Of a stretch of DNA of 64,000 nt, positions 4,025-61,364 are shown one piece after another. Below the pieces are notes generated by a model, which saw nothing but the letters and a program-made list of their open reading frames with translations, ran no database searches and was not told the DNA's origin. The translations under genes and the position numbers were made by a program. The stretch is from the NCBI GenBank assembly GCA_008330645.1, contig VLTN01000012.1, positions 372,001-436,000 of the forward strand. Reading direction: 5' to 3'. Each line of letters opens with the position of its first letter. Within the stretch, counting starts at the first letter, position 1. Source of the stretch: Cafeteria roenbergensis. Taxonomy: Eukaryota > Sar > Bigyra > Bicosoecida > Cafeteriaceae.

Positions 4025-6297
4025 TCAGTCGAGGGCTCGCTGGCGAGCGCGCGCTGCAGCAGCCCCAAGCACGCTGCGGGCCCGCGCCCCGCCACGGTGC
4101 CGCAGCTCTACAGACCCCACAGACGCCTGGCTTGGCGCCACCGCCGACCTTCCGCGTCGAGCCTTGCGCCCACGTGCCGCTGGGCTCCGAGCAGAGCTCG
4201 CGGAGTAGTCTTCGTCGTCGTTGGAGTCGTCGTCGCAGCCCTCGTCGGTTGCGCCGGCTTCGTCGTCCGAAGAGTCTGCCCTGGCGCTGGCACCGCGCCT
4301 GGGAGAGCAGTCGTCGCTGCCGCTGCTCTCAGACGCGCTTCTGCGCTGCCGGCATCGCGGCCTGGCTCCGTGGGAGTCGCTGTCGGAGCCATCGGCGCTC
4401 TCGTACTCGTCGTCGCTGCCAGAGTCGGATGCCTGCCGGCTTGGCGCAGATCCTCGCCGGCCTCGCTTGGCTGCGCGCTTTGCGCCTGCGTCCGAGGCGC
4501 CACTGTGACGGGCACGAGACTCGCCCTCGGCCGCAGGTCCTGGGGCCAAGAGCAGCTTCAGGGACCGCTTGCTTGCCTCGCCCTGCATACGCTTCTCCTG
4601 CAGCCACTGCGAGGCTTCCTGCGCTGCCAGCCGAAGCTTGTGGGAGTCGTGCACCTCTCGGCCCTGGTTCCCGCGCGTTGACGAGGCGAGCAGGTCCCTG
4701 TCAACCAGCTTCCGGATGAGCGCTCTGGAGACGTCCCGCTCCTTCCTGCCAAGGCCAATCTGCTTGGCCAGTGCCGTCTGGGTCAAAAAGTCGCCCCGCT
4801 TCTCCCATGCAACCAGCGTCGCCAGGCTGAACAGCATCCGTGGCATGTCACCGTCGTCCTTGGCCTTCGGCGAGCCAGAGCTGGCGGCAGCGGCAGCCTT
4901 CCCGTCAATGGCCGTCGGGAGGTCGAGAGCCATGACGCGAAACTGCGCGGCGTTTCCGGCGCGCTTGCCTGAGCGCCGCAGCACGTTCCGTGCCACCAGC
5001 GTCTCGAGAACGCGGCTCAGCATGAGCGGCGGAATCTCGTTGCCGAACTCCTGCCGAAGGGTCGCGAGCGACGCGGTCCTGGTTGCCAGCACGTGCGCCT
5101 TGACGCGGTCCACCCAAAGCTGGAACTTCGCCTCGCGCGCCGCTGCTGGGTCGGCTGCGGCCTCTGGGGCAGCGGCGGCGGGGCGCCTCGACGAAGCAGT
5201 CTCGCCTGTGTCTCCACGTGACGCTGCGCTGCTGGGATCAGCGGCCGCGACGCCGCACCCGCGTGCCGACGTCTCCGGAACTGGCGTCTCGGCTGCGCTC
5301 GTTTCGGCAGGCGCTGCGGTCACGTAGTCCCTCCTGAACGCAACGGACATGGCCATCTTGTGGAAGCTGGTCTCCGCGGAGCCTGCAAGCAGCTTGACGG
5401 GGCTCTCGCCTGTGAATCGCTCAGGCATGATGTCGCGCGCGTCTGAGAAGTGCTTTGGGGCCCACTTGTCATCGTGCGGCACGAGGTCGTCGTAGTAGTA
5501 GAGCCGCATCGACAGAAGCAAGTCTGCCTCAGGCAGCTGCGGCAGGGTGTTGACCAGGGAGATGAGCGTGCGCACGAGCGCAATCGCCTGCCGCGAAGCC
5601 CCTGCGCGCGTGAACTTGGAGCCGCTGCGCGCTTCGACGCTGAGGTGGACCTGGCTGTCCTCCGAGTACGTGACCCGAATGATGTACGACTCAAGCAGGG
5701 ACGCGCCTTCCGGGCCGGCGGAGTCAGACGTATCTGAGGACGCCGGGGTGCTCTCCGGCAGCTGCCACAGGCTCAGGACGACGGCTCGCAAGAACCCTGC
5801 GGTCCGCGCAGCAACGCAGCGCGCGCGGAGCGGGCAGTTGCACTTGACGAGGGGTGCAAGCGCGGGTGAGACACGAACGCCTGGCACGGGGACAGGACTC
5901 ACCTCCCTCCAACGCAACAAACACGCCGTCTTCGAGCCAGTCGGCGATGGGTGTGCCGGGACGCGGGAGGTGTGTCGTGACGCCGCCAAAGGCGGTCTCG
6001 TCAAAGTCAGCGGGCGGCAAGACGCCGCGAAGCCAGAGCAGCTCCCCCACGGTGGCGCGGCACAAGTTCCGGACCATCTTTGTGCTTGATGCTTGCGTGA
6101 TGTCCGTGGACGTGGCCGTCTTGGCCTCGGTCGCGGGCTTCGTGGCCTGGGCGAGCGCGGCCTGCGAGCGCGGGCAGTTGCCAGTTGCCAGAAATGCGAG
6201 CAGCGCACTTGCCGTCTCGCCGGGTTTTCACCCGCCGTGCGGAGCCCCCTGCGCTCGCAGCTCGCTGAATCGATTGCACGCGCTGGTTCCTCACCAT
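4025..6297 (-). CDS. HOP1: Meiotic HORMA-domain protein (Hop1/ASY1/HORMAD type)
   Basis: Exons on the minus strand are 6297-6295 (the ATG alone), 6161-5903 and 5796-4025, giving 677 residues. The HORMA domain spans about residues 28-245. It begins MVRNLCRATVGELLWLRG, contains the IADWLEDGVFVAL helix, and has the RLYYYDDLVP strand typical of Hop1/ASY1. A Ser/Ala linker follows. Next are two winged-helix-like segments (about 308-378 and 405-490), as known from the chromatin-binding region of Hop1/ASY1, and then an acidic/Ser-rich tail. The family builds the meiotic chromosome axis and controls recombination and the pachytene checkpoint, so the gene suggests a sexual cycle. Introns are GTGAGG...CAG (phase 0) and GTGAGT...CAG (phase 1). 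The second splice joins VALEG to FLRAVV in perfect family register. The three-base first exon is an inference, and another upstream start is possible. The gene lies 155 bp downstream of the DUF218 gene on the same strand. Confidence 0.85.
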
Positions 6298-6452
6298 GCT
6301 GTTGGGCCGCTTGCCAGAGCTGCCAGGCGTATGTGCGTGGGCGGCGCCGCTGTGCGAGCAGCGCGGCAGAGCTGCAGTTCGTGCCGTCGGGCAATCGCAC
6401 GTCGCGCATTCGAATGGCAGCCTTGGGCTGCATGGCTCCCCTCCCCTTGGGA

Positions 6453-7408
6453 TCACAGCAAGCGTGTCTCGTGCGCCGGGGTGCCCAGGCTCGTGTCCAG
6501 CTGCGCGGAGGGAACCAGCTCGGCCACGCTGCGCGAGAGGTCGCCACCCCGGCGAGCTTCCAGGATTTCGCCCAGCAACGTGACGTTGTACTGGTGGCCA
6601 CCGATCGGGCTGCTGTAGTAGCTCCGCAAGATCGGGATCCAGTCCCGCTGAGGAGTGGGCGGAATGAGAGCAACCCAGTCCTCCGCGTACGCCGCCACCT
6701 GAGAGTTGGTGCTGTCGGCTTGCTCAAAGTCGTCCATAGCACGAGGCATGTGGTACAGCGAGGTGACCACCGCTTGGCAGAGGGAAGGCTTGTGGAAAGT
6801 GTACTGAGCCAGCCGCTGCCCGAGCATGGCGCCCGCTGCAAGTGCGTTCTCCGCAGTGCTCGCCGCGTCCTCCTCCACGATCACGGCTGACGGCGGCACG
6901 GACACCCCCGGCCCGACACCTTGCACCATGTTCTGCTTCAGCACGAATGCCTCAGACGCGTAGTTTCGGGCCGTTGCGTAGGATGCAAACGTGGAGTTGG
7001 GCGGAACAAGAATCGAGTTGTTCACAATCTCGTACCGAACACCTGCGAGACACGAGTTCAGTCGCTGCCCGCAGAATCGTTACGGTCAAGAGGACCGGCC
7101 TGGGTTGGCCCAGCCCGGCGAGCCTGGGCGATTGCGCTCCGATCTGGCCCGCGATTGCCGTAGGCGGCGACGGAGAAGCTCTCACCAATGAGGTAGCCTC
7201 CAGACGTCACGATGGGCGTCTTCCCGTCGAGATAGTTGTAAAGCATTGCTGCCCCCGAGGAGCGACAGTCGCCCGACAGCCCAGGCACGATGGCGCCGCT
7301 GGAGTTGGACACAAGTTGAGCTCCAAGCACAACCATCACATCCGCAGTCGGCAGGGAGCACGCCGCTGCGGCCGCCACGCCCAGGGCGCCCACGAGTAGC
7401 CTGACCAT
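6453..7408 (-). CDS. Secreted/ER DUF218 (YdcF-like) protein
   Basis: Two exons, 7408-7186 and 7042-6453, give 270 residues. The GTGAG donor and TCTCGCAG acceptor create GGYLIGVRYEIV across a phase-1 junction. Residues 1-18 form a hydrophobic signal-like segment ending near ACS. The DUF218 core is visible as ADVMVVLGAQ, a TPIVTSGG turn, and a region around NSTFASYATARNYASEAF that matches the family's conserved Ser/Thr..Asn helix. Bacterial relatives bind nucleotide-type ligands or act in envelope biology; eukaryotic members are poorly characterised, so no reaction is claimed. It is head-to-head with pelota (184 bp between start codons), which suggests a shared promoter region. Confidence 0.75.
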
Positions 7409-28193: not shown

Positions 28194-31100
28194 TCACACC
28201 ATTCGCAACTTGAACAGGCGAATCGCGCGGTCGTCGAAGAGGTGCAGGTCGCTGACGCCGCGCAGGTAGATCACGCCCCACACGAAGGAGGACAGCCAAT
28301 GCCATGTGGCAGGGCCGTGGTCAGTGCGGCGCGCGTAAATGACGTGCGGGCGCGGGATGGTGCCCACGAGCGTGGTGCTGCGAAGCTCAGCGAGGAAGGC
28401 CTCGTCGTCCAATGTGACGCCCTGCTCGCTCGCCTTGGCGGCGTGCCGGCGAAGCAGCGCTGACATGTGCCGCGTGCCCGCGAGCAGCGTCCTCAGAAGC
28501 GGGATGGTCGCCATCTGCTCGTCCAGCCACTCCTTCGTCGGCCGCCACGACTCCCAGACAACGTCCTCGGGGCCGGCATCGTGCGACTGCGCGAGCTCTC
28601 CCGCAGTTGGGCCCGACTGTGTGGCGTCCTCCCGCCCGTCCGCTCGCCCGTCGACACTGGCTCCCGCGGAGGACGCTGGGGCCTGCGGGGCGGGCGCGGA
28701 TGGCGCGGCGACAACTTGTGCCGCGCTCGCTGCGCTGCCCGGCGCCCCTGCGCCAGCCGCCGCCTTGCTGTCCGCCCCAGCAGGGCTCCCTGCGTCAGCA
28801 GCGGTGCTGGCGCCCGCCTCTGCCGTGGTTGCTGCGGCGGAAGCGGCCACATCGGGGTCGATTCCAGCCGTGTCCGCGCGCCTGCCCTTGCCAACAAGCC
28901 TCGCGGCCCTGGAGTGCCCGTCCACAGCCGCCTCCAGCGAGAGCGACGCGAGCCACTCGAGGCGCGAGGAGGCCTGCACGAGCGCGTACATGGTCTCCTC
29001 GTTCCCCGTGTACTGGTACTGCATCATATTGGCGAGGGCGGTGATGAGGTGGGCGAGCAGCCCGAAGTTGTCCGGTCGCGCGAAGAGGAACCGGGGCGAG
29101 GCCAGGATGTCCAGCAGCGCCCCCAGCTTAACGGAGCCGTCCAGGGACAGCTTCTTCACGTACGGGGACACGTTGCTCAGCGTCTGCGAGGGACACGCAG
29201 CATGACAGTGGAACGGGGGGGGGGGCGGCCGCGCGGAGCCGGTTCGAGCCTGGAAAGGGCGACTCTGGGATTGCAACGGGCGAACTACGAGCAGCAGCGG
29301 CGGTGGCGGGAGCAGGGAGAGAGGCACAAGCCCCAGCGCAGGCACAGCCAGCACCAGCAAAGCCGCCGCACGCCGGGGGCAAGCCCGCCTCGCTCACCGC
29401 CAGGAAGTGGCCGTAGAGGGGTCTGAGCCGGCGCGTGGCGTTCACCACCAGCCGGTGCAGCGTCACCACCAGCAGGTCCGCGTGGGTCGCGGAGCCCGGC
29501 ACGACTGGAATCCCGCCCGGGAGGGCCGCTTCGACGGGCCGGTTGAGGTTCACGGCAAAGTCACGGTAGCTGGAGAGGAGGAAGAGGACGAAGGTGCAGA
29601 GGTGGAGGAACTGCGCGCGCGCCGCCGTGAGCCTGCCTGTCCAGAGGAAGTAGCAGATGGGGACGACGATCTGGTTGGCGTCGGCGTCCCGCACCAGGTG
29701 CTCGAGGAAGGCCGCGTTGTCGCAGAGCAGGTACCACAGCAGGGCCACGAGCTCCTGGTGGCACAGCACGGGGGAGGAGGTCGCCCCCGGGAAGTAGGCT
29801 GCGTCCGACTGCCACACGGCGTTGAGGAGCGCAGAGAGCCGCGTGGTCATGAGCGTGAGGTCCGCGGAGTGGCGCACGCACGCCAGCATCGCGCGCTGCA
29901 CGCCAACGCGGTCCGCTGTGGGGGCGCCCTCTGACGCCGCGGGGCTTGCGCCGCCGCTGGGACCGTCCTCCGCGTCTCCGGTTGGCGACGCTGGCTCTTC
30001 CGGCAGAGCCATGCGCGGCTCGGTGCGAGCTGCGTCCGCAGCGGCCTTGTCAGCGGCTGCGGCCTCGGCCGCCGCGGCCTTGGCCGCCTCGATGCCCGTC
30101 AGAAAGCCAACAGGGTCCGCGGGGGCGCTGAGCGGTCTGTGATGGATGTCTGATGGCGCGGTCTCGAGGTCGAGGCGGGGCATGCCGTGCGGGCTGTGGT
30201 GCATGAATAGCAGGAGGACGTGGAGCGACGAGTCCACGAGGCCCGGCATGCCGTCGGCGAGGATGGTGGACGCGTATGGGACGTAGGCGTTGAGGCCGAC
30301 GGGGTCGAACGCGAGCACGGTGTTGAGCAGGCTGAGGGTCAGGGTGGGCGCGAAGGGGCAGTGGCGCGAGGTAAGCTCGTCGGCAAACGCGTTTGAAGGC
30401 TGCGGGCAGGGAGGGAGGGAGGGAGGGAGGGGTTGAGGGGGGCGGGGTTGAGGGGGGCGTCGTTGCAACGGCGAGGTGGCAGCGGCAGCGGCAGCGGCAG
30501 CGGCAGCGGCAGCGGCAGCGGCAGCGGCAGCGGCAGCGGCAGCGGCAGCGGCAGCGGTCCCGAGCGGGTTCCGCCGCCTCCTGCGGCTCAGCGCCTGCGA
30601 GCTCACCGGGCAGTCGCCGTCTGTCGGGCGGAACAGGGGCTCGGACACGAGCGCCACCACGAGGCGGAGCAGCTCCACGCGGGCCTCCACCATGGCCGAG
30701 GAGGGGGCGGCGGCCTGCTTGGTGTAGCCCACCCCTCCTGCCCAGAGCAACGTGGGCCACACCGCGTTGCTCTCGTCAAGGAGGCTCGCTCCAGCGTCCG
30801 TCGCGCCGGCCGCAGCGCCCATGGCGGGGGCAGCGTCCCTCACAGCCGAGGCCCGTTCACGCAGCACCCGGCGCTTGTTCTGGTAGAACGCGTGAGACTT
30901 GGCGTCGATGCAGAGGCCGGGCGCGAACAGCAGCCGCATCACCGCGTGGCAGAGCCGCTGACCCGGGGAGCGCCAAGGCCCCTTGGTGGACGCGTCGGCC
31001 GGCGCGCCCGCTGCGGACGTGGCGGCAGAGCCAGTGGCAGCATCGCCCTTGCCAGAGCCAGCGCCGGCCCGGGCGGCGGCCACGCCACCAGTCTCGCCGG

Positions 31101-32470
31101 CGCCGGCTGCGCCGTCGCGGGAGGGGTCCTCCTCCCAGCGCAGCCGGGGGGGCGGCACGGTGACGTTGGCCTTTCGCTGTGCCCGCCGGAAGCCCGGTGG
31201 CAGGACGCCCCGGGCCACCTGCTGCAGAGCCTTGCCCACGGCCTCGGCTGGGTGGCCGGGAACCACCGACATCTCCTCCTCCGGCTCGTCGCCGTCGTCC
31301 TCGCCATCGTCGTCGCCATCGGCGCCATCTTCGCCGTCGCTGTCTCCGCCGCCGATGCCAGCAGCGGCGGCGGAGGCAGTGCCACCGTCGTCCTCGTCAC
31401 CGCCGTCCGCTTCTCCGGCTGGACCAGCCGGGGCATCCTTCCCAGCAGCGCCACCGCCTTCCGTGGCCGCAGCACCTTGGGCCTCGGTCGCTCCCGCCGA
31501 GGGTGGCGCGGCGGCAGAGCCCCGCCCCTTCCACCCGGCCTCCTCCCTGGCCCGCTCGAGCTCTGCCATGCGTTGTTCCAGCTCCTCCGCCGGAACTTCG
31601 TCCCGGTCATCAACGTCCGACGGCCCATACGGCTCTGCGCCAGCGGGATCAATCCCGACGCGCTCCGCCTCGGCAGCTGACTCCCACCCGAGGGGCCTCG
31701 CGCCTTCCCACAGGACGCGACGCGCGAAATCGTCCGTCTCCGGATCAGCTGACACAACTGCCGGCATCACGCGAGTGAGGATGCGAGCCTGCGCACACGC
31801 GCCACGCCAGCAGGGAGAGAGAGAGAGAGAGTGGTGCAGGACGGCGCGGCGGCAACGGCAGCCAGCAGCGCCACGCTGACTCCTCGGCGCGCGCGAGCAA
31901 GAACCGCCCTCACGGCGTTCATTGCCTTGGCGTACTTGGTCGCGTCAAGGCTCGACGCGGCGTCCTCAATCACGTCGATGGCCTGCGGTGCGCGGTGGAG
32001 GCGGGCGGCAAGAGAGCAGAGTTGCGGGATTGCAGCTTTGTCGGCCGCTGAGGCAGCCCGCCAAGTTCGAGCCGCTGGCTCACCTTGTTCAAGAGGTTGG
32101 CCAGGTTGCGAGGCTGGCGGTAGCGCATCTGGCGGACGTCTGCTGGGTGAATCGTCGAGCAAATGGTCTGCGAGCGAGCGGCAAACCAGCGCGGGGATGC
32201 CAGGCTATTTCGGCGAGCATTCCAAAGCAGCTGCGCTCGCCTCGCGCGGCGCTCCTGGCCCAGTGTGCGCCTTGTGCACCAATGGCCTGGGACCGCGGGA
32301 CGCTTTGCGCGTGGCGACGGGCGATCCCGGCCACTGCCCCGTGAACGCACCTCCATCGTGCAGGGCGCCTCCCAAAACACGCGCCATTCGCGGTCGTCCG
32401 CGGGCACGTGCTCCCTGTCGATGCGCCCGGCCGCCATGATGACATCAGTCGCCGACAGGCTGTTTCCCAT
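28194..32470 (-). CDS. HID1: HID1 family trafficking protein, predicted N-myristoylated
   Basis: Six exons on the minus strand (32470-32351, 32167-32084, 31982-31914, 31788-30607, 30399-29398, 29183-28194), all phase 0, give 1148 residues. HID1 is a peripheral Golgi/trans-Golgi protein needed for dense-core vesicle and acidification functions in animals. The start MGNSLSA fits N-myristoylation, as known for HID1. Conserved blocks are STIHPADVRQMRYRQP..NLANLL, ILTRVMPAVV, LSLLNTVLAFDPVG, CHQELVALLWYLL, a segment ending SSYRDFAVNLNRP, THADLLVVTLHRLV, NVSPYVKKLSL, NMMQYQYTGNEETMYALV and the C-terminal FVWGVIYLRGVSDLHLFDDR. It is about 360 residues longer than human HID1 because of Ala/Asp/Ser-rich insertions after the third exon and before the C-terminal block. 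Donors are GTGAG except the first (GTGCGT). A hexanucleotide repeat lies in the fourth intron. Confidence 0.93.
30478..30557. repeat. (GGCAGC)n hexanucleotide repeat in HID1 intron 4
   Basis: About 13 copies of GGCAGC, reading GCTGCC in the HID1 pre-mRNA, lie between donor 30606 and acceptor 30400. They would encode poly-Ala if retained. Confidence 0.9.
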
Positions 32471-38776: not shown

Positions 38777-38848
38777 AGCGACTTGGCGCAGCCGGTAGCG
38801 CGCCTGGCTCATAACCAGGAAGTCGGTAGTTCGAGTCTATCAGTCGCT
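38777..38848 (+). tRNA. trnM-CAT: tRNA-Met (anticodon CAT), elongator type
   Basis: The 72 nt fold into a full cloverleaf. The acceptor stem pairs AGCGACT with AGTCGCT, the D arm is GCGC...GCGC, the anticodon arm CCTGG-CTCATAA-CCAGG carries CAT at 38810-38812, and the T arm is GGTAG-TTCGAGT-CTATC. The normal T-loop (TTCGAGT, not the initiator-type ATCGAAA) makes it elongator tRNA-Met. Internal promoter boxes are visible (A box TGGCGCAGCCGG, B box AGTTCGAGTCT), and a T5 terminator starts 9 nt downstream. No intron and no encoded CCA. The first pair is A:T, which is more usual in initiator tRNAs. Confidence 0.92.
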
Positions 38849-38856
38849 CTCTTCTA

Positions 38857-56189: not shown

Positions 56190-56525
56190 TCATTGCCGCA
56201 AGGAGCATGTTGACAGTCCTCCAGATGGCGTCAACTCACAATCATCCGTGAGATCGCGGGCCTTGCACACGTTTTCGCTGGGCAGCCTGACCTTGGCCCA
56301 CGGCGCTCCGCCTACGAGCTCTTGAGGCGGTTTCGTGTGTACCGACCCGAATTTGCCAACGGAGGGCCTCATAATCCCTCCATGCACCGCAAAGCGTTTC
56401 GCTTGTCCTCCAAGCGCTCCAGGCTTGTCTGCCCTCGGAGTCAAGTCCAAAAGGTTCAGCTCGAACGCCCCAAGGGCCGGAGCAGGGGGCATGGCCAACC
56501 TTGGGGGCCTGCGAATCCCATCCAT
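56190..56525 (-). CDS. DLTD-family small paralogue, copy A
   Basis: ATG 56525 to stop 56190, 111 residues, intronless. It starts MDGIRRPPRLAMPP, followed by ALGAFELNLLD, and near the C-terminus has ARDLTDDCELTPSGGLST, ending CSLRQ. It lacks the hydrophobic residue directly before DLT that copies C, D and E have. The middle is Gly/Lys/Arg-containing and disordered. Closest to copies B and C by the M[DE]GI start and the GGLST ending. Confidence 0.6.
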   Translation of the reverse strand: MDGIRRPPRLAMPPAPALGAFELNLLDLTPRADKPGALGGQAKRFAVHGGIMRPSVGKFGSVHTKPPQELVGGAPWAKVRLPSENVCKARDLTDDCELTPSGGLSTCSLRQ

Positions 56526-56991
56526 TTGGGGTAGTCAGAAACCTCGCAATTTTCGGGAGGCCTTCCTGGCGTGGTCCGGCAGGCGCGGTGGAATAACGCG
56601 CAGAGCCTCGCGCTTGCTGGATGTGGCACCGACTGCCCAGCCGAGCCTGGCATGCTAACGCAGCGCAGCGCCACGACGCTTGGCAAGGCTTAGGCCGCTT
56701 TGAGCGCATCGCGCTTCGCGACAATTGGCGTGCGAGCCCACGTTTGCTGCCGCAGCTGTCCACTGCACTCCGAGCAGTCTTGGTAGCTGTGGAACACGCA
56801 AACCTGACTCGGCACACGCTCGCACATGCGCGCGCCAGTGCCGGCAGCTGCAGCTAACGGAGCCGTGCACCTCCAATCGTGCGGTGGCTGCAAGTAGCCC
56901 ACTGTCCGTGCGATCTTCGCGAGCTGCTTCGTGCAGCCAAGCGGCCGCGCATGCAGGCTGAAGTCTCGGCGAATCGCGGCCGTCGTGACAG
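56526..56991. other. Spacer between copies A and B
   Basis: No gene supported. Confidence 0.35.
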
Positions 56992-57495
56992 TCACGTGAT
57001 ACGGCAAACGGCGAAAAGCACGGGCTTCTTTTTTGGCAATACTGCCCGGAAGGCAATCCTTGCGACCAAGTGGCGCGGCTGAGCCGCAGTCTTGGGGGCT
57101 GGACGCGCGCAGCAAGCAAGCGTGCAGCTTCGGCCATCCGGGTCCGGGCGAGGGGTGTGCCATGCTTGCGACGAGCCCGTGGATAGCCCGCTCAAAGGAG
57201 TCGACTCGCCATCATCTGTGAGATCACAAATGCGCCGAGATCCGGCCGCGGGCAGCAGGCCCTCGGCCTGTGACACCGCAACCCAGCGCGAAAGCTGGCT
57301 CTTGTTGCGAAGGGCTTGGGAAGCGCCGTCAACCCGCTTCATACGCAGCCCAAGAGTTGCTGACCCACGTGACTCGGGACCGACGGCAGTCGGGGTGCTG
57401 GCGCAGTCTGCCCCTCCTCGCTGAGTCGTCTCGAACGTGCTGAGCGTTCGCGACGGTGGCATGACGAGTGCCGGGGGCCTGGATATGCCCTCCAT
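56992..57495 (-). CDS. DLTD-family small paralogue, copy B (extended C-terminus)
   Basis: ATG 57495 (MEGISRPPALVMPPSRTL, then STFETTQ) to stop 56992, 167 residues. The conserved ICDLTDDGESTPLSGLST is followed by about 60 residues without counterpart in the other copies. The position where A and C stop reads GSSQAW instead, so an ancestral stop was probably lost. The extension is Cys/Arg/Pro-rich and looks like read-through into flanking DNA. Confidence 0.55.
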   Translation of the reverse strand: MEGISRPPALVMPPSRTLSTFETTQRGGADCASTPTAVGPESRGSATLGLRMKRVDGASQALRNKSQLSRWVAVSQAEGLLPAAGSRRICDLTDDGESTPLSGLSTGSSQAWHTPRPDPDGRSCTLACCARPAPKTAAQPRHLVARIAFRAVLPKKKPVLFAVCRIT

Positions 57496-58669
57496 GGCTG
57501 GCGCCCGTGAGGTACAGTCGCAAAATCGGACGCCCGGCAAGTGGTGTCTCGGAGGGAGAAACGACGGGGCGGCTTGCCAAGCTGTCATTCAATCGCCTGT
57601 CGCACGGGTCTTGACGCGTGCCCTGTCAGCTGCCGCCACAAGCGTGCAGCGCCAGCAGCACTCGCGGACAAGTGGGCTCCCAGCAAGGTCGCATGTTGAG
57701 CCAATGCTCCTTGCCCAGTCGCGAGTGATGCAGACCAAGAGTAACTGGAGCCTTGACTTTCGGAATGAACATCGTTCGGCAGTGGGCGAAAGTTTGTCGT
57801 GGAGTCGGTTGGTTTTGGTGAACTGAGTAGCGAGCAAGCGTTCGCACCGCGTCGCAATGCACCCCTGAACCTGCTGTCCAGGGCCGCCGCTGGTCATGAA
57901 CGACGTGCGCACCCTTGCTAAAGCGCCAATCGAGCTATCCCAAGCGCGCCTTGTGCTGGCACAATGCCACGGCGACGTGGCACGTCTGCGCCTTGGGTAC
58001 GCCGCCGCGCCAATGGCAGGCTGCCGCGGTTTGGAGCGCGGGGCGGAGCCAGGGGGCGGAGATGGTCGCCTCTGGGCCGCAGCGTGCCGGCAGTTACGTG
58101 ACAAGCGCGGTGACACGCTCTTGGTGACGCCTGCAGGCCCCCACCAGGCGCCGTGCGAAGCTGAGTGCACCGCGAGCGTTTGGCGATCGCGTCTGGGCGG
58201 CTCCTGGCAGCGCGCTGAGCAAGCATGTGGTCTCCTGCGCATCCGATCACGAAACACAAGACGCATTTTTGCGGGTGCATCTATCATCACGCAACAAAGC
58301 ATTCGGTTGGCGTCTGAGCAGCGACGCCCACACTCGGAGCGCGGAGCGTCCAGCGCGACTGGCCTTCAACGAGGCAGCCCCCCGCCCCAGCAACCACTGA
58401 CGCTCGCCAGGCAAGGATGACTGAGCGAATCCCCTCAGAGGCGACTTCAGGCCGTGAGCAGGCCCTGGATGTGCAGGCGCTCTCCATACGTCGAGCGGCG
58501 CACGGCGCTTCCATCGTGATGGACTTGCGGGGGGACTTCGGGACGTGAGACGAAGTCCGCCTCGAGCCGGCGGAGACCTCGTCAGCATTCGTCCTTCTGT
58601 GTCCAAGTGTAGCCAGCTTGGGCCTTCGTTTCTTGGCACGAGGCTTCAGAGCGCCGCTGTTCGGCTGGG
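57496..58669. other. Largest spacer of the array (about 1.2 kb)
   Basis: I found no clear gene. It is large enough to contain a decayed copy, but the RPP and DLTD motifs are not detectable in any minus-strand frame. Confidence 0.4.
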
Positions 58670-59020
58670 TCATTCCTCTCGGTCCAGGACACTCGTGGAC
58701 AAGCCACCCAGGGGGGTCGCCTCGCCCTCATCCGTAAGATCAAGCGTCTGTCGCGAACTCCCCAGCGTGCTCAGCTCGCCTGGCGTCCGGGCCGCAGGCG
58801 TCGTGGCCGGGCCTACGCGTAAGGGCGGCGCTGGCCTTGCTCCGCGCCTCACAACCCACCCGCCCGATGCTGCGCCGCTGTCTTTCGAGCCGAACGATGT
58901 CGGCGTTCCTTGCAACGAGGCTGCGGCTGCTTCTGATGGCTGCTGCTGCCGGAGCTCGAACGTCCCAAAATCTCGCACCGGCGGCACAACCAGCGCCGGC
59001 GGCCTGCAGATGCCATCCAT
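58670..59020 (-). CDS. DLTD-family small paralogue, copy C
   Basis: ATG 59020 to stop 58670, 116 residues, intronless. N-motif: MDGICRPPALVVPPVRDFG, then TFEL. C-motif: TLDLTDEGEATPLGGLST, ending SVLDREE. Linker is Gln/Ser/Gly/Arg-rich. LDLTDE is a good SUMO-interaction-like sequence with downstream acids. Confidence 0.65.
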   Translation of the reverse strand: MDGICRPPALVVPPVRDFGTFELRQQQPSEAAAASLQGTPTSFGSKDSGAASGGWVVRRGARPAPPLRVGPATTPAARTPGELSTLGSSRQTLDLTDEGEATPLGGLSTSVLDREE

Positions 59021-59773
59021 TTATTGAGCTCAGGCGCCTCTTGGCCGGGCTTGCTGACGCGCAAGCGCGGTGTGATGCAGTGCGACGCGTTCCGGACGCA
59101 GAGCGCCGGCGCTTGTCGGTCTCGCGGGCCAAGCATCGAGAGGGGAGCGCAGTCAGTGGCCCGCGCATGGGCCCAGCAAGCTGCCTGCGCCCAGCAGGCA
59201 GCGCCAGATCTGCTCTGGGAAGGGCTGCCACGCAGTGTGCGGCGTAGGCTGTGTGGCAAGGCCTGCTGGCCGAAGGCGGGGGAGTCGGCGCGGCTGCAGG
59301 TTCCTTTGCTGGACAAATCACTCAGGCGTGCTCAGAATCATGTGCCAGGAAACGCGTGACCCTCAAACCAAAGTCTGATGGCTGCATGGTCAAGCACGGC
59401 CCGCACACAGCGGCGGCAAAGAAGCGCGAATAGGAGGCGGGGGAGTACCCCCCCCCCCCCCGCCGAGAAGTGCTGTGCCCAACGGGCGTCACCAGAGACC
59501 TCCACGCCGGGACCCCCACGCTGCAGATGCTCCACCAGACCTGCTCGCGAGCACCAAGCAGCGGGGCTCGTCCCCAGCGGTGGCGCCTCGAGTCCGGTGC
59601 CGCCCCAGTCGTGGAGGCGAGGGATTCGCCAGCCGTTGCGAGCAGCGCTCCAAGCGCTGCGAAGAATCTCGCGCCGTCGCGATGACATCGAAGCCCGCCA
59701 TTTGTGGCGCCGGAGGACTCCGGCGTGGGGCGGCGGCCGCCGAGGAGTCAGGACAGGTTGGCGAGTGCACGCG
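59021..59773. other. Spacer between copies C and D
   Basis: Contains a C14 run at 59448-59461. No gene supported. Confidence 0.4.
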
Positions 59774-60118
59774 CTAGCCAGTGTCGCCAGCTCGCTGGAA
59801 CGGCGACTCGGTTTGAGAGTCTGGGTCGTCGGTCAGGTCGACGGAGCGTGTGCCCGAGGAACCTGTGGACTTTACGGCCTGCTTCGAACTCACACGCAGG
59901 CCAGGCGAGGCCGCACTGGCGGGCCCCGACCGGAAGCCCACCACAGAAGCATTTGCTGGGAGAGAGCCTCCACTCGCCGGCGAGCGGGGAGCCAGGGCCT
60001 GCATGGCCGGCCTAGCGCGTTCGGGACTGGACCTTGGCGCAAGCTCGAAGTCCCCAAAGTCCTCTGGGGCCGGAATGGTCAGCGCCGGTGGTCTGGAGCT
60101 GCCGCACACTCGAGCCAT
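59774..60118 (-). CDS. DLTD-family small paralogue, copy D
   Basis: ATG 60118 to stop 59774, 114 residues. N-motif SSRPPALTIPAPEDFGDF, then ELAPR; middle SGPASAASPGLRVS; C-motif RSVDLTDDPDS. It pairs with copy E, and in the 14-residue segment PAPEDFGDFELAPR the two genes differ at 10 codons, all synonymously. Confidence 0.7.
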   Translation of the reverse strand: MARVCGSSRPPALTIPAPEDFGDFELAPRSSPERARPAMQALAPRSPASGGSLPANASVVGFRSGPASAASPGLRVSSKQAVKSTGSSGTRSVDLTDDPDSQTESPFQRAGDTG

Positions 60119-60935
60119 GGCGATCGTGAGCGCTCGGGGCACGGCCGGGGTTGCTGCGGGCCGCCGAGGCGAAAACAGATTGTGCGGTTGGAAGCAGCCA
60201 GAAGCTGCAACCTTGGGCGTTCGCGGGCTGCAGCCTGGCTCCGCTGCGGCCGGCGGTGCAGCTGTCGCTCCCACGAGGAGCAGGCGGGGACCCAACAGCA
60301 GCGGGTTCTACCCATTCAAGTCACGGGCGCCCGGCGGCTCCAGGGCGCGCAACCGCGAGCCTTTTGGCCAGCTACCGCTGCGGCGCTGAACCATCGCGAC
60401 GGCGTGCAAGCGGCGGCGGTCTGCATGTCTGCCCTGCGATGTGAAGCCGGCCCTCGCGAAATCTACTGCCCCGAGTGCGCCCATTTGCTTCGCGCAATCA
60501 CTGTCATACTTGCAAGCATCACGGCGGGCTCTGAAAACGCGAGGGCGTGCAAGCAGCAAGACCTGACAGCAGTAGCAAGCTCTGCGTTGGCCGCACACGG
60601 TCTTAGATTCTGACTAGAAACCGCGCAAAAAACTCACGGCAATGCACCCACAACAACAAGACGCACACAAACGATGGCGCGCTGCTCTTTGGCCGAGCGA
60701 GCGCGCCGCGGAACACACGGAGCTGGATCTGACAAGCATCGAGAAATTGAACCTCTGAGGGAGGGGCGCGAGCCTGCGCTCAAGCTGCCTTCCTCCTCAA
60801 ACGAAGCAGCAGGGGCTGCCAAGAACTTGATAGCGAAGAAAATATGAGCATGTAGGGCTGCCATTTCGGGGCCGCCTTTGCGGGAGCGGTAACGCCGCCA
60901 CAACTGCCGGGAGGCCAGCTCGACGGCAGCTGACT
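60119..60935. other. Spacer between copies D and E
   Basis: About 820 bp, A-rich around 60640-60850. No gene supported. Confidence 0.4.
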
Positions 60936-61364
60936 TCAACCACGAGGAATTTCTTTCAAATCCCTGGGGTGCCCGCCCAGTTCGCAGCAAGCCTTGTCAT
61001 CCTTCTCGGTAGCACGACACCACCGTGAGAGCGAGGCTAGCGGCGATTCCGGGTCGTCGGTCAGGTCCAGTGAGCGGCTGTTCCCCGAGCTGGCCGAAGG
61101 CACCGTTCGTGCAGTGCTCGCCAGGCTTGCGGCAACCTGGAGCCCCGGCGACGCCGCGCTTCCAGGCCCAGAGCGGCATCCAATCACGGCGACCTTGGCA
61201 GGTCGCACGCTGCTCGCGTCTGGGGAGCGAGGCGTGGAAGCCTTCGCAGCAGGGCACGCGTCCTGGCGAGGCGCTCGAGGAGCCAGCTCGAAATCGCCGA
61301 AGTCCTCCGGAGCAGGAATCACCAGCCCTGGCGGCCGGAGGGAGTCGGCAGCCCGAGGGAGCAT
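60936..61364 (-). CDS. DLTD-family small paralogue, copy E
   Basis: ATG 61364 (MLPRAADSLRPPGL) to stop 60936, 142 residues. N-motif LRPPGLVIPAPEDFGDFE; middle RSGPGSAASPGLQVA; C-motif RSLDLTDDPESPLASLS. About 30 further residues (RWCRATEKDDKACCEL...) follow, which may be read-through because copy D stops earlier. Confidence 0.7.
   Translation of the reverse strand: MLPRAADSLRPPGLVIPAPEDFGDFELAPRAPRQDACPAAKASTPRSPDASSVRPAKVAVIGCRSGPGSAASPGLQVAASLASTARTVPSASSGNSRSLDLTDDPESPLASLSRWCRATEKDDKACCELGGHPRDLKEIPRG

Follow-up and report, generated by a model that had tools for sequence, protein, structure and literature searches.

The 64,000-nucleotide stretch of Cafeteria roenbergensis DNA analysed here (contig VLTN01000012.1, positions 372,001 to 436,000; called the window below, with a G+C content of about 70%) carries five frames, A–E, on the minus strand between window positions 56190 and 61364, each running uninterrupted from an ATG to a stop codon. 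Judged by the motifs shared at both ends, which bore out the original prediction of tandem paralogous minus-strand frames, A–E are one paralogous tandem family. The preferred reading, given a probability of roughly 35%, is that they are five genes for short linear-motif tether proteins with a putative docking end at the N-terminus and a phosphorylatable DLTD end at the C-terminus, possibly SUMO-reading in C, D and E; the function is proposed from the sequence. The copies and their end motifs are located as follows.

56190..56525, minus strand: copy A, 111 residues, with RPPRLAMP, LGAFE and the C-terminal ARDLTDDCELTP
Residues 25-30 of copy A: an extra site, LLDLTP, just behind the N-terminal motif (motif pattern)
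56992..57495, minus strand: copy B, 167 residues from the motif-proximal ATG, with RPPALVMP, LSTFE and ICDLTDDGESTPLSGLST
58670..59020, minus strand: copy C, 116 residues, with RPPALVVP, DFGTFEL and TLDLTDEGEATPLGGLST
59774..60118, minus strand: copy D, 114 residues, with RPPALTIP, EDFGDFEL and SVDLTDDPDSQTESPF
60936..61364, minus strand: copy E, 142 residues, with RPPGLVIP, EDFGDFEL and SLDLTDDPESP
61284..61340, minus strand: N-terminal motif of E (motif scan)
60041-60097, 58952-59008, 57427-57483 and 56457-56513, minus strand: N-terminal motifs of D, C, B and A, respectively (motif scan)
61020..61076, minus strand: C-terminal DLTD motif of E (motif scan)
59792-59848, 58694-58750, 57178-57234 and 56208-56264, minus strand: C-terminal DLTD motifs of D, C, B and A, respectively

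For copy B, an upstream ATG at 57588 offered an alternative start and a product of 198 residues. All five copies carried RPPxLx[IVM]P and [FL]xxFE near the N-terminus, the latter beginning with L in A and B and with F in the other three, and DLTD[DE] near the C-terminus. In the N-terminal segment R-P-P-x-L-x-[IVM]-P, conserved positions alternate with variable ones. Both end motifs were present in nine of nine sequences when four relatives from outside the window (P0003, P0004, P0006 and P0007, related to E, B, C and D, respectively) were included, and the order of elements was RPP, [FL]xx[FY]E, a variable linker, DLTD[DE] and [ST]P, with a linker of 69–74 residues in eight of the nine. The [ST]P, located at most nine residues after DLTD in all nine sequences, was absent from the earlier description; of the motif pattern given there, both ends stood in all five copies and the final serine did not, being found in B, D and E only (L in A, A in C). 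The single invariant proline of the linker was preceded by S or T in eight of the nine sequences and by K in A. The five proteins consisted of 39–53% S, P, A and G and of 15–23% F, W, Y, I, L and V. In the branch comprising D, E, P0003 and P0007, the linker contained a third conserved block, V[VI]GxRSGPxSAxSPGL.

The coding nature of the frames was evaluated by a codon comparison, in which the proportions of differing synonymous (pS) and non-synonymous (pN) sites in the motifs refer to short stretches of 16–19 codons and are given without a significance test. Between D and E, 11.8 of 14.2 synonymous and 3.2 of 39.8 non-synonymous sites differed in the N-terminal motif (pS 0.84, pN 0.08); the linker gave pS 0.81 and pN 0.34, and the C-terminal motif showed a weaker contrast than the N-terminal one (pS 0.51, pN 0.27). 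For A and B, pN was 0.29, 0.58 and 0.22 and pS was 0.63, 0.72 and 0.74 in the N-terminal motif, the linker and the C-terminal motif, respectively. Over the pairs A–B, B–C and A–C, pN ranged between 0.23 and 0.29, 0.51 and 0.58, and 0.18 and 0.22 in the same three parts, with pS of 0.51–0.78, the A-C linkers being highly diverged and their alignment uncertain. Change has gone further in the linker than in the motifs on either side of it. Pooled over ten pairs, the N-terminal motif gave pS/pN of 0.62/0.30 in its own frame and of 0.39/0.37 and 0.21/0.43 in the shifted frames, and the C-terminal motif 0.84/0.40 in its own frame and 0.43/0.54 and 0.48/0.58 in the shifted ones.

Open reading frames arise easily by chance in this neighbourhood (56 of at least 80 residues over 9 kb), which would suit non-functional frames or decaying duplicates in GC-rich DNA. 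Such a reading is hardly credible and is already contradicted by the motifs, in which pS lay well above pN in the coding frame only and not in the two shifted frames, as well as by the relatives, which keep the frames and one of which, that of E, is listed in a transcriptome set. Non-coding or chance frames were ruled out by the codon comparison together with this transcriptome entry, and the same comparison argues that A–E are a real tandem family under selection. The 400-bp flanks of the copies had common matches of only 10–14 nt and no longer shared blocks; the duplications therefore look old, with the motifs apparently retained since then.

The relatives were obtained in three non-exhaustive searches over 5.8 billion proteins, the first two of which scored the best 8000 candidates by shared words, the third having 69 candidates. 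The first profile search returned seven sequences, namely C, B and D of the window, P0003, P0004, P0006 and P0007. Seven were also returned by the second, run with nine rows, among which a fragment of A (P0008) was new and P0003 was missing, and the third, with P0003 alone as the query, returned P0003, P0007 and P0005. P0003 had the same length as E, differed from it at 3 of 142 residues and was listed for Cafeteria in UniRef and in MMETSP, which is a transcriptome collection. This listing, as distinct from the transcript itself, points to transcription of E in a related strain and to its being read there as one 142-residue frame. Between B and P0004, 22 of 198 residues were changed: 4 of the 31 upstream, 1 of the 22 in the N-terminal motif, 9 of the 66 linker residues, 0 of the 19 in the C-terminal motif and 8 of the 60 tail residues. 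The C-like P0006, with 69 of 84 aligned residues identical, was without 32 linker residues and kept both ends, and the D-like P0007 was identical at 69 of 114 residues. Transcripts for each frame and homologues keeping both motifs had been named in the original prediction as its support; the former were indicated for E, through P0003, and the latter were seen in four of the four relatives outside the window.

No relative was found in a scan of viral contigs with D (15 pattern matches, none confirmed). None of the five copies matched a Pfam family and none of the nine sequences an NCBIfam model (bacterial and archaeal), both at E up to 10; a PDB profile search by sequence gave no matches, and PHROGs at E up to 1 gave a single chance-level match (E 0.12) in one of the nine. 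The earlier statement that no family of this build is described agrees with these collections; nor did any of the open-licence papers listed in a Cafeteria search, judged by title and opening of the abstract, describe such a family, which says little about the wider print. The family appears to be known so far only from Cafeteria and from sources without an organism name, and it resembles many other lineage-restricted protein families.

The number of copies, put before at no less than five, came to five by protein, DNA-pattern and 80-kb scans. A sixth was not found in the genome (36,303,456 bases, 167 contigs) by two protein searches with E and C as queries or by three DNA patterns, nor by the 80-kb motif scan; the genome searches rank the best candidates only and ignore introns, and a strongly diverged copy could therefore escape them. 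The search with C also gave four low-scoring hits at other places (E 0.2 to 3.4), which were taken as chance. The codon pattern for DFGxFEL had three matches in the whole genome, in C, D and E only (reversed-pattern control 0). The DLTD[DE]x[DE] pattern had nine, five in the array and four outside (control 2), and the RPPxL pattern 15, four in the array, A using different codons, and 11 outside (control 10). At the outside matches to the RPPxL and DLTD patterns, the other motif was absent in the surrounding 80–100 residues. A score matrix built on the motifs of seven sequences (A–E, P0006 and P0007) and run over 80 kb gave the copies 43–61 bits, a value circular for the copies themselves, with the next best scores at 6.1 for the N-terminal and 7.3 for the C-terminal motif.

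Two further features ascribed to the array before, the absence of introns and a disordered build, held in part. E appears intronless, inasmuch as P0003 forms one frame of the same length; C may be spliced, a simple pattern search having detected a single candidate intron in its linker (GT-AG, in frame, 105 nt). Removal of this candidate would give GGWVTLDLTDEG, and the 32 residues absent from P0006 lie at nearly, not exactly, its place. A passage in PMC6972860 gives an average of 1.67–1.89 introns per gene in these Cafeteria strains, so the absence of an intron is not unusual. The disordered build was supported for D by an AlphaFold model with a mean pLDDT (predicted local distance difference test) of 59.0, a pTM (predicted template modelling score) of 0.15 and no secondary structure, although the alignment was shallow, with nine rows only, and a real fold could therefore be missed. 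None of the 114 residues of D reached 90 and 16 fell between 70 and 90; the best block, residues 11–20 inside the N-terminal motif, had a mean pLDDT of 84, and the DLTD block, residues 91–100, had 61. The charge-hydropathy rule put all five proteins slightly on the folded side, against the disordered build.

This last result would suit the idea that both end motifs fold into one small novel domain with the linker as a loop, as would the similar linker lengths (69–74 residues in eight of nine sequences) and the constraint on the D and E linkers. The model of D points the other way, as do the loss of 32 linker residues from P0006 and the lack of a relative in the PDB sequence search, and a single folded domain is very improbable.

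For the N-terminal end, none of the compared motifs would explain the whole segment in all five copies. Copies A–E might be substrates or decoys of mitogen-activated protein kinases (MAPK), with RPPxLx[IVM]P as the docking (D-) motif, comprising a basic residue, a proline for the lower pocket, two spacers, L-x-[IVM] and P, and with DLTD and its [ST]P as the phosphorylated output in place of a SUMO reader. The loose D-motif consensus given in a passage of PMC4670726 accommodates this segment, with the proline that follows its final hydrophobic position. Nine of nine sequences contain RPxxLx[LIVMF], as does the [ST]P after DLTD, and the S or T before the invariant linker proline in eight of the nine is in line with the same idea. 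The pattern Basic(1,2)-x(0-5)-phi-x(1,2)-phi-x-phi matched all five window copies, but also 27–60% of their shuffled N-termini, and the match alone therefore means little and serves as a lead only. The tight form RPxxLx[LIVMF]P was met in 0.04–0.66% of shuffles, but this form was drawn from these same sequences. Moreover, the pattern of the JIP1 class, [RK]P[^P][^P]L.[LIVMF], was found in none of the nine sequences, P at the second position breaking it, and most copies have a single basic residue. A MAPK-directed role is rather unlikely.

The alternative of accessory proteins that bind the ear domains of AP-1 and GGA, with EDFGDFE directed to the gamma-ear and a role in clathrin sorting at the Golgi and endosomes, is unlikely as an account of the family. 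Ear ligands follow the consensus aromatic-G-[PDE]-aromatic/L/M, which the EDFGDFE of D and E fits; FGDF is present in D, E and P0007, and FGDY in P0003. Aftiphilin was itself identified via a search for the gamma-ear-binding motif, as stated in a passage of PMC3444471. The genome encodes, on contig C20, an adaptin with a weak ear match (PF02883) beside Adaptin_N matches, but with 25.7 bits the ear match stays under the Pfam cut-off of 27.6. The pattern [FW]G[DEP][FWLM] matched D, E and P0007 and not A, B, C, P0004 or P0006; of the five copies, only D and E qualify, C having FGTF, A LGAF and B LSTF, and the invariant RPPxLx[IVM]P and DLTD are left unexplained. The clathrin-ear reading proposed before fits D and E only. 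Calcineurin LxVP, Keap1, beta-TrCP, FHA, Polo-box, PP4 and GYF-type motifs were also considered and set aside as fitting poorly across the copies.

The C-terminal end was examined as a SUMO-interacting motif (SIM). Its cores, taken as the four residues ending in the DL of DLTD, are ARDL in A, ICDL in B, TLDL in C, SVDL in D and SLDL in E, with one V, I or L in A and two in each of the others. Acidic and phosphorylatable residues stand beside the core in all nine sequences (DLTD[DE], and [ST]P within nine residues), and SIM affinity is known to be raised by phosphorylation beside the core, according to a passage in PMC12751080. The genome contains a SUMO-like gene (C99:32710-32916), whose product has a QLGG end followed by a short ASA tail and matched in the PDB a SUMO-2 double chain (E 1.9e-27) and SMT3 (E 1.1e-16). 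It also encodes a MIZ-finger protein (C40:77313) whose last residues, EEEDVIDLT before the stop, are a textbook SIM; a DLT-class SIM therefore occurs in this genome. At 27.1 bits the MIZ match fell short of the Pfam cut-off of 33.5, and the 739-residue piece of the protein matched no further PIAS domain, for which reason the name PIAS-like is tentative. Weak or phosphorylation-dependent binding of SUMO may still occur with copies C, D and E. In copy A, which lacks V, I or L before DLTD, a second site, LLDLT at residues 25–29, fits a SIM core by pattern.

In the tether reading, each protein would have two working ends. The N-terminal segment of about 18 residues would dock on one partner, and the acidic C-terminal DLTD segment on another when phosphorylated at the conserved proline-directed site. 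The likeliest C-terminal partner of C, D and E would be SUMO, and in A and B this end would be weakened or changed. This reading draws on the conserved ends and faster-changing linker, on the presence of both ends in all nine sequences, on the shortened linker of P0006, on the foldless model of D with its one confident stretch inside the N-terminal motif, and on the SUMO gene and DLT-class SIM of the genome. The bridging-adaptor role suggested in the original prediction may apply in these terms, and the bridging idea is the best single guess, with limited confidence.

Several points weigh against it. A SIM has a four-residue core in which, typically, three or more positions are hydrophobic, above all V, L or I (a passage in PMC12751080), and at the DLTD site three V, I or L were found in none of the five copies and in one of the nine sequences (P0006, ILDL), although the rule would be less strict if A, C or T also passed as hydrophobic. 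Within DLTD, the T and the D after it do not vary, and an invariant D, L, T and D would not be expected, being more than a SIM should need. The core short of three V, I or L and the invariant DLTD are the reasons why the copies are not classed as SIM proteins, and the earlier assignment to a known SIM class failed the core rule at the DLTD site of all five. The D–E linker is itself constrained (pN 0.34 against pS 0.81) and the D–E C-terminal motif only moderately held (pN 0.27 against pS 0.51). The [ST]P counts in favour of the reading, having appeared in all five shuffled 20-residue tails of the window copies at a frequency of 0.0001 (20,000 shuffles), but this value overstates the significance because the copies are related and not independent. 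The position of all five on the folded side of the charge-hydropathy rule belongs here as well.

A bolder version, in which the proteins would be lineage-specific SUMO-reading tethers, D and E joining SUMO-modified proteins to AP-1/GGA coats via EDFGDFE, A, B and C serving other partners and [ST]P gating SUMO binding, is quite improbable. If true, a bacterivorous flagellate would possess a duplicated, diversifying set of proteins that connects SUMO signalling with membrane traffic. Should the partner of either end be found, the five diverged paralogues would form a natural series for following how a binding motif persists, weakens or turns into another.

Directly upstream of E lies a frame that is not a member of the family, and other loci were recorded in the window and elsewhere in the genome:

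61687..64000, minus strand: 3' part of a 2382-residue frame (C12:433687-440835 in full) that matches DENN weakly and below the cut-off (E 9.6e-4)
4028-6880, minus strand: HORMA-domain protein (E 1.3e-13)
29131-31944, minus strand: Dymeclin/Hid1-family protein (E 4.3e-39)
38777-38849, plus strand: tRNA-Met gene
C1:296472-301374 (outside the window): polyubiquitin-like array, three long frames with 14 ubiquitin-like units of identical score

Among known systems, the ligands of the gamma-ear and GGA-ear, such as aftiphilin, gamma-synergin and p56, are resembled by D and E through EDFGDFE; unlike these ligands, A, B and C are without it, and the conserved element of the family is longer and begins with RPPxLx[IVM]P. 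The hydrophobic (PIF) motif of AGC kinases, FxxF[ST/DE][FY], is resembled by C, D and E, in which FxxFE is followed by a hydrophobic residue, but the FxxFE of the copies stands at the N-terminus of small non-kinase proteins. With MAPK D-motifs, as presented in a passage of PMC4670726, the copies share the basic residue, L-x-[IVM] followed by proline and the nearby [ST]P sites, and they differ from them in usually having one basic residue and in the second P inside the spacer. The SIMs of RNF4, of which a passage in PMC4083429 shows EIVDLTCES within the SIM2 peptide and PVVVDLTHND in SIM3, and the tail of the C40 MIZ protein are matched by the copies in the DLT core with adjacent acids and serines, in a genome that has SUMO. 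Unlike in these SIMs, the residue two before D is A in copy A, I in B, T in C and S in D and E, the residue one before D is R, C, L, V and L in A to E, respectively, and the copies have an invariant T and next D, then an [ST]P site.

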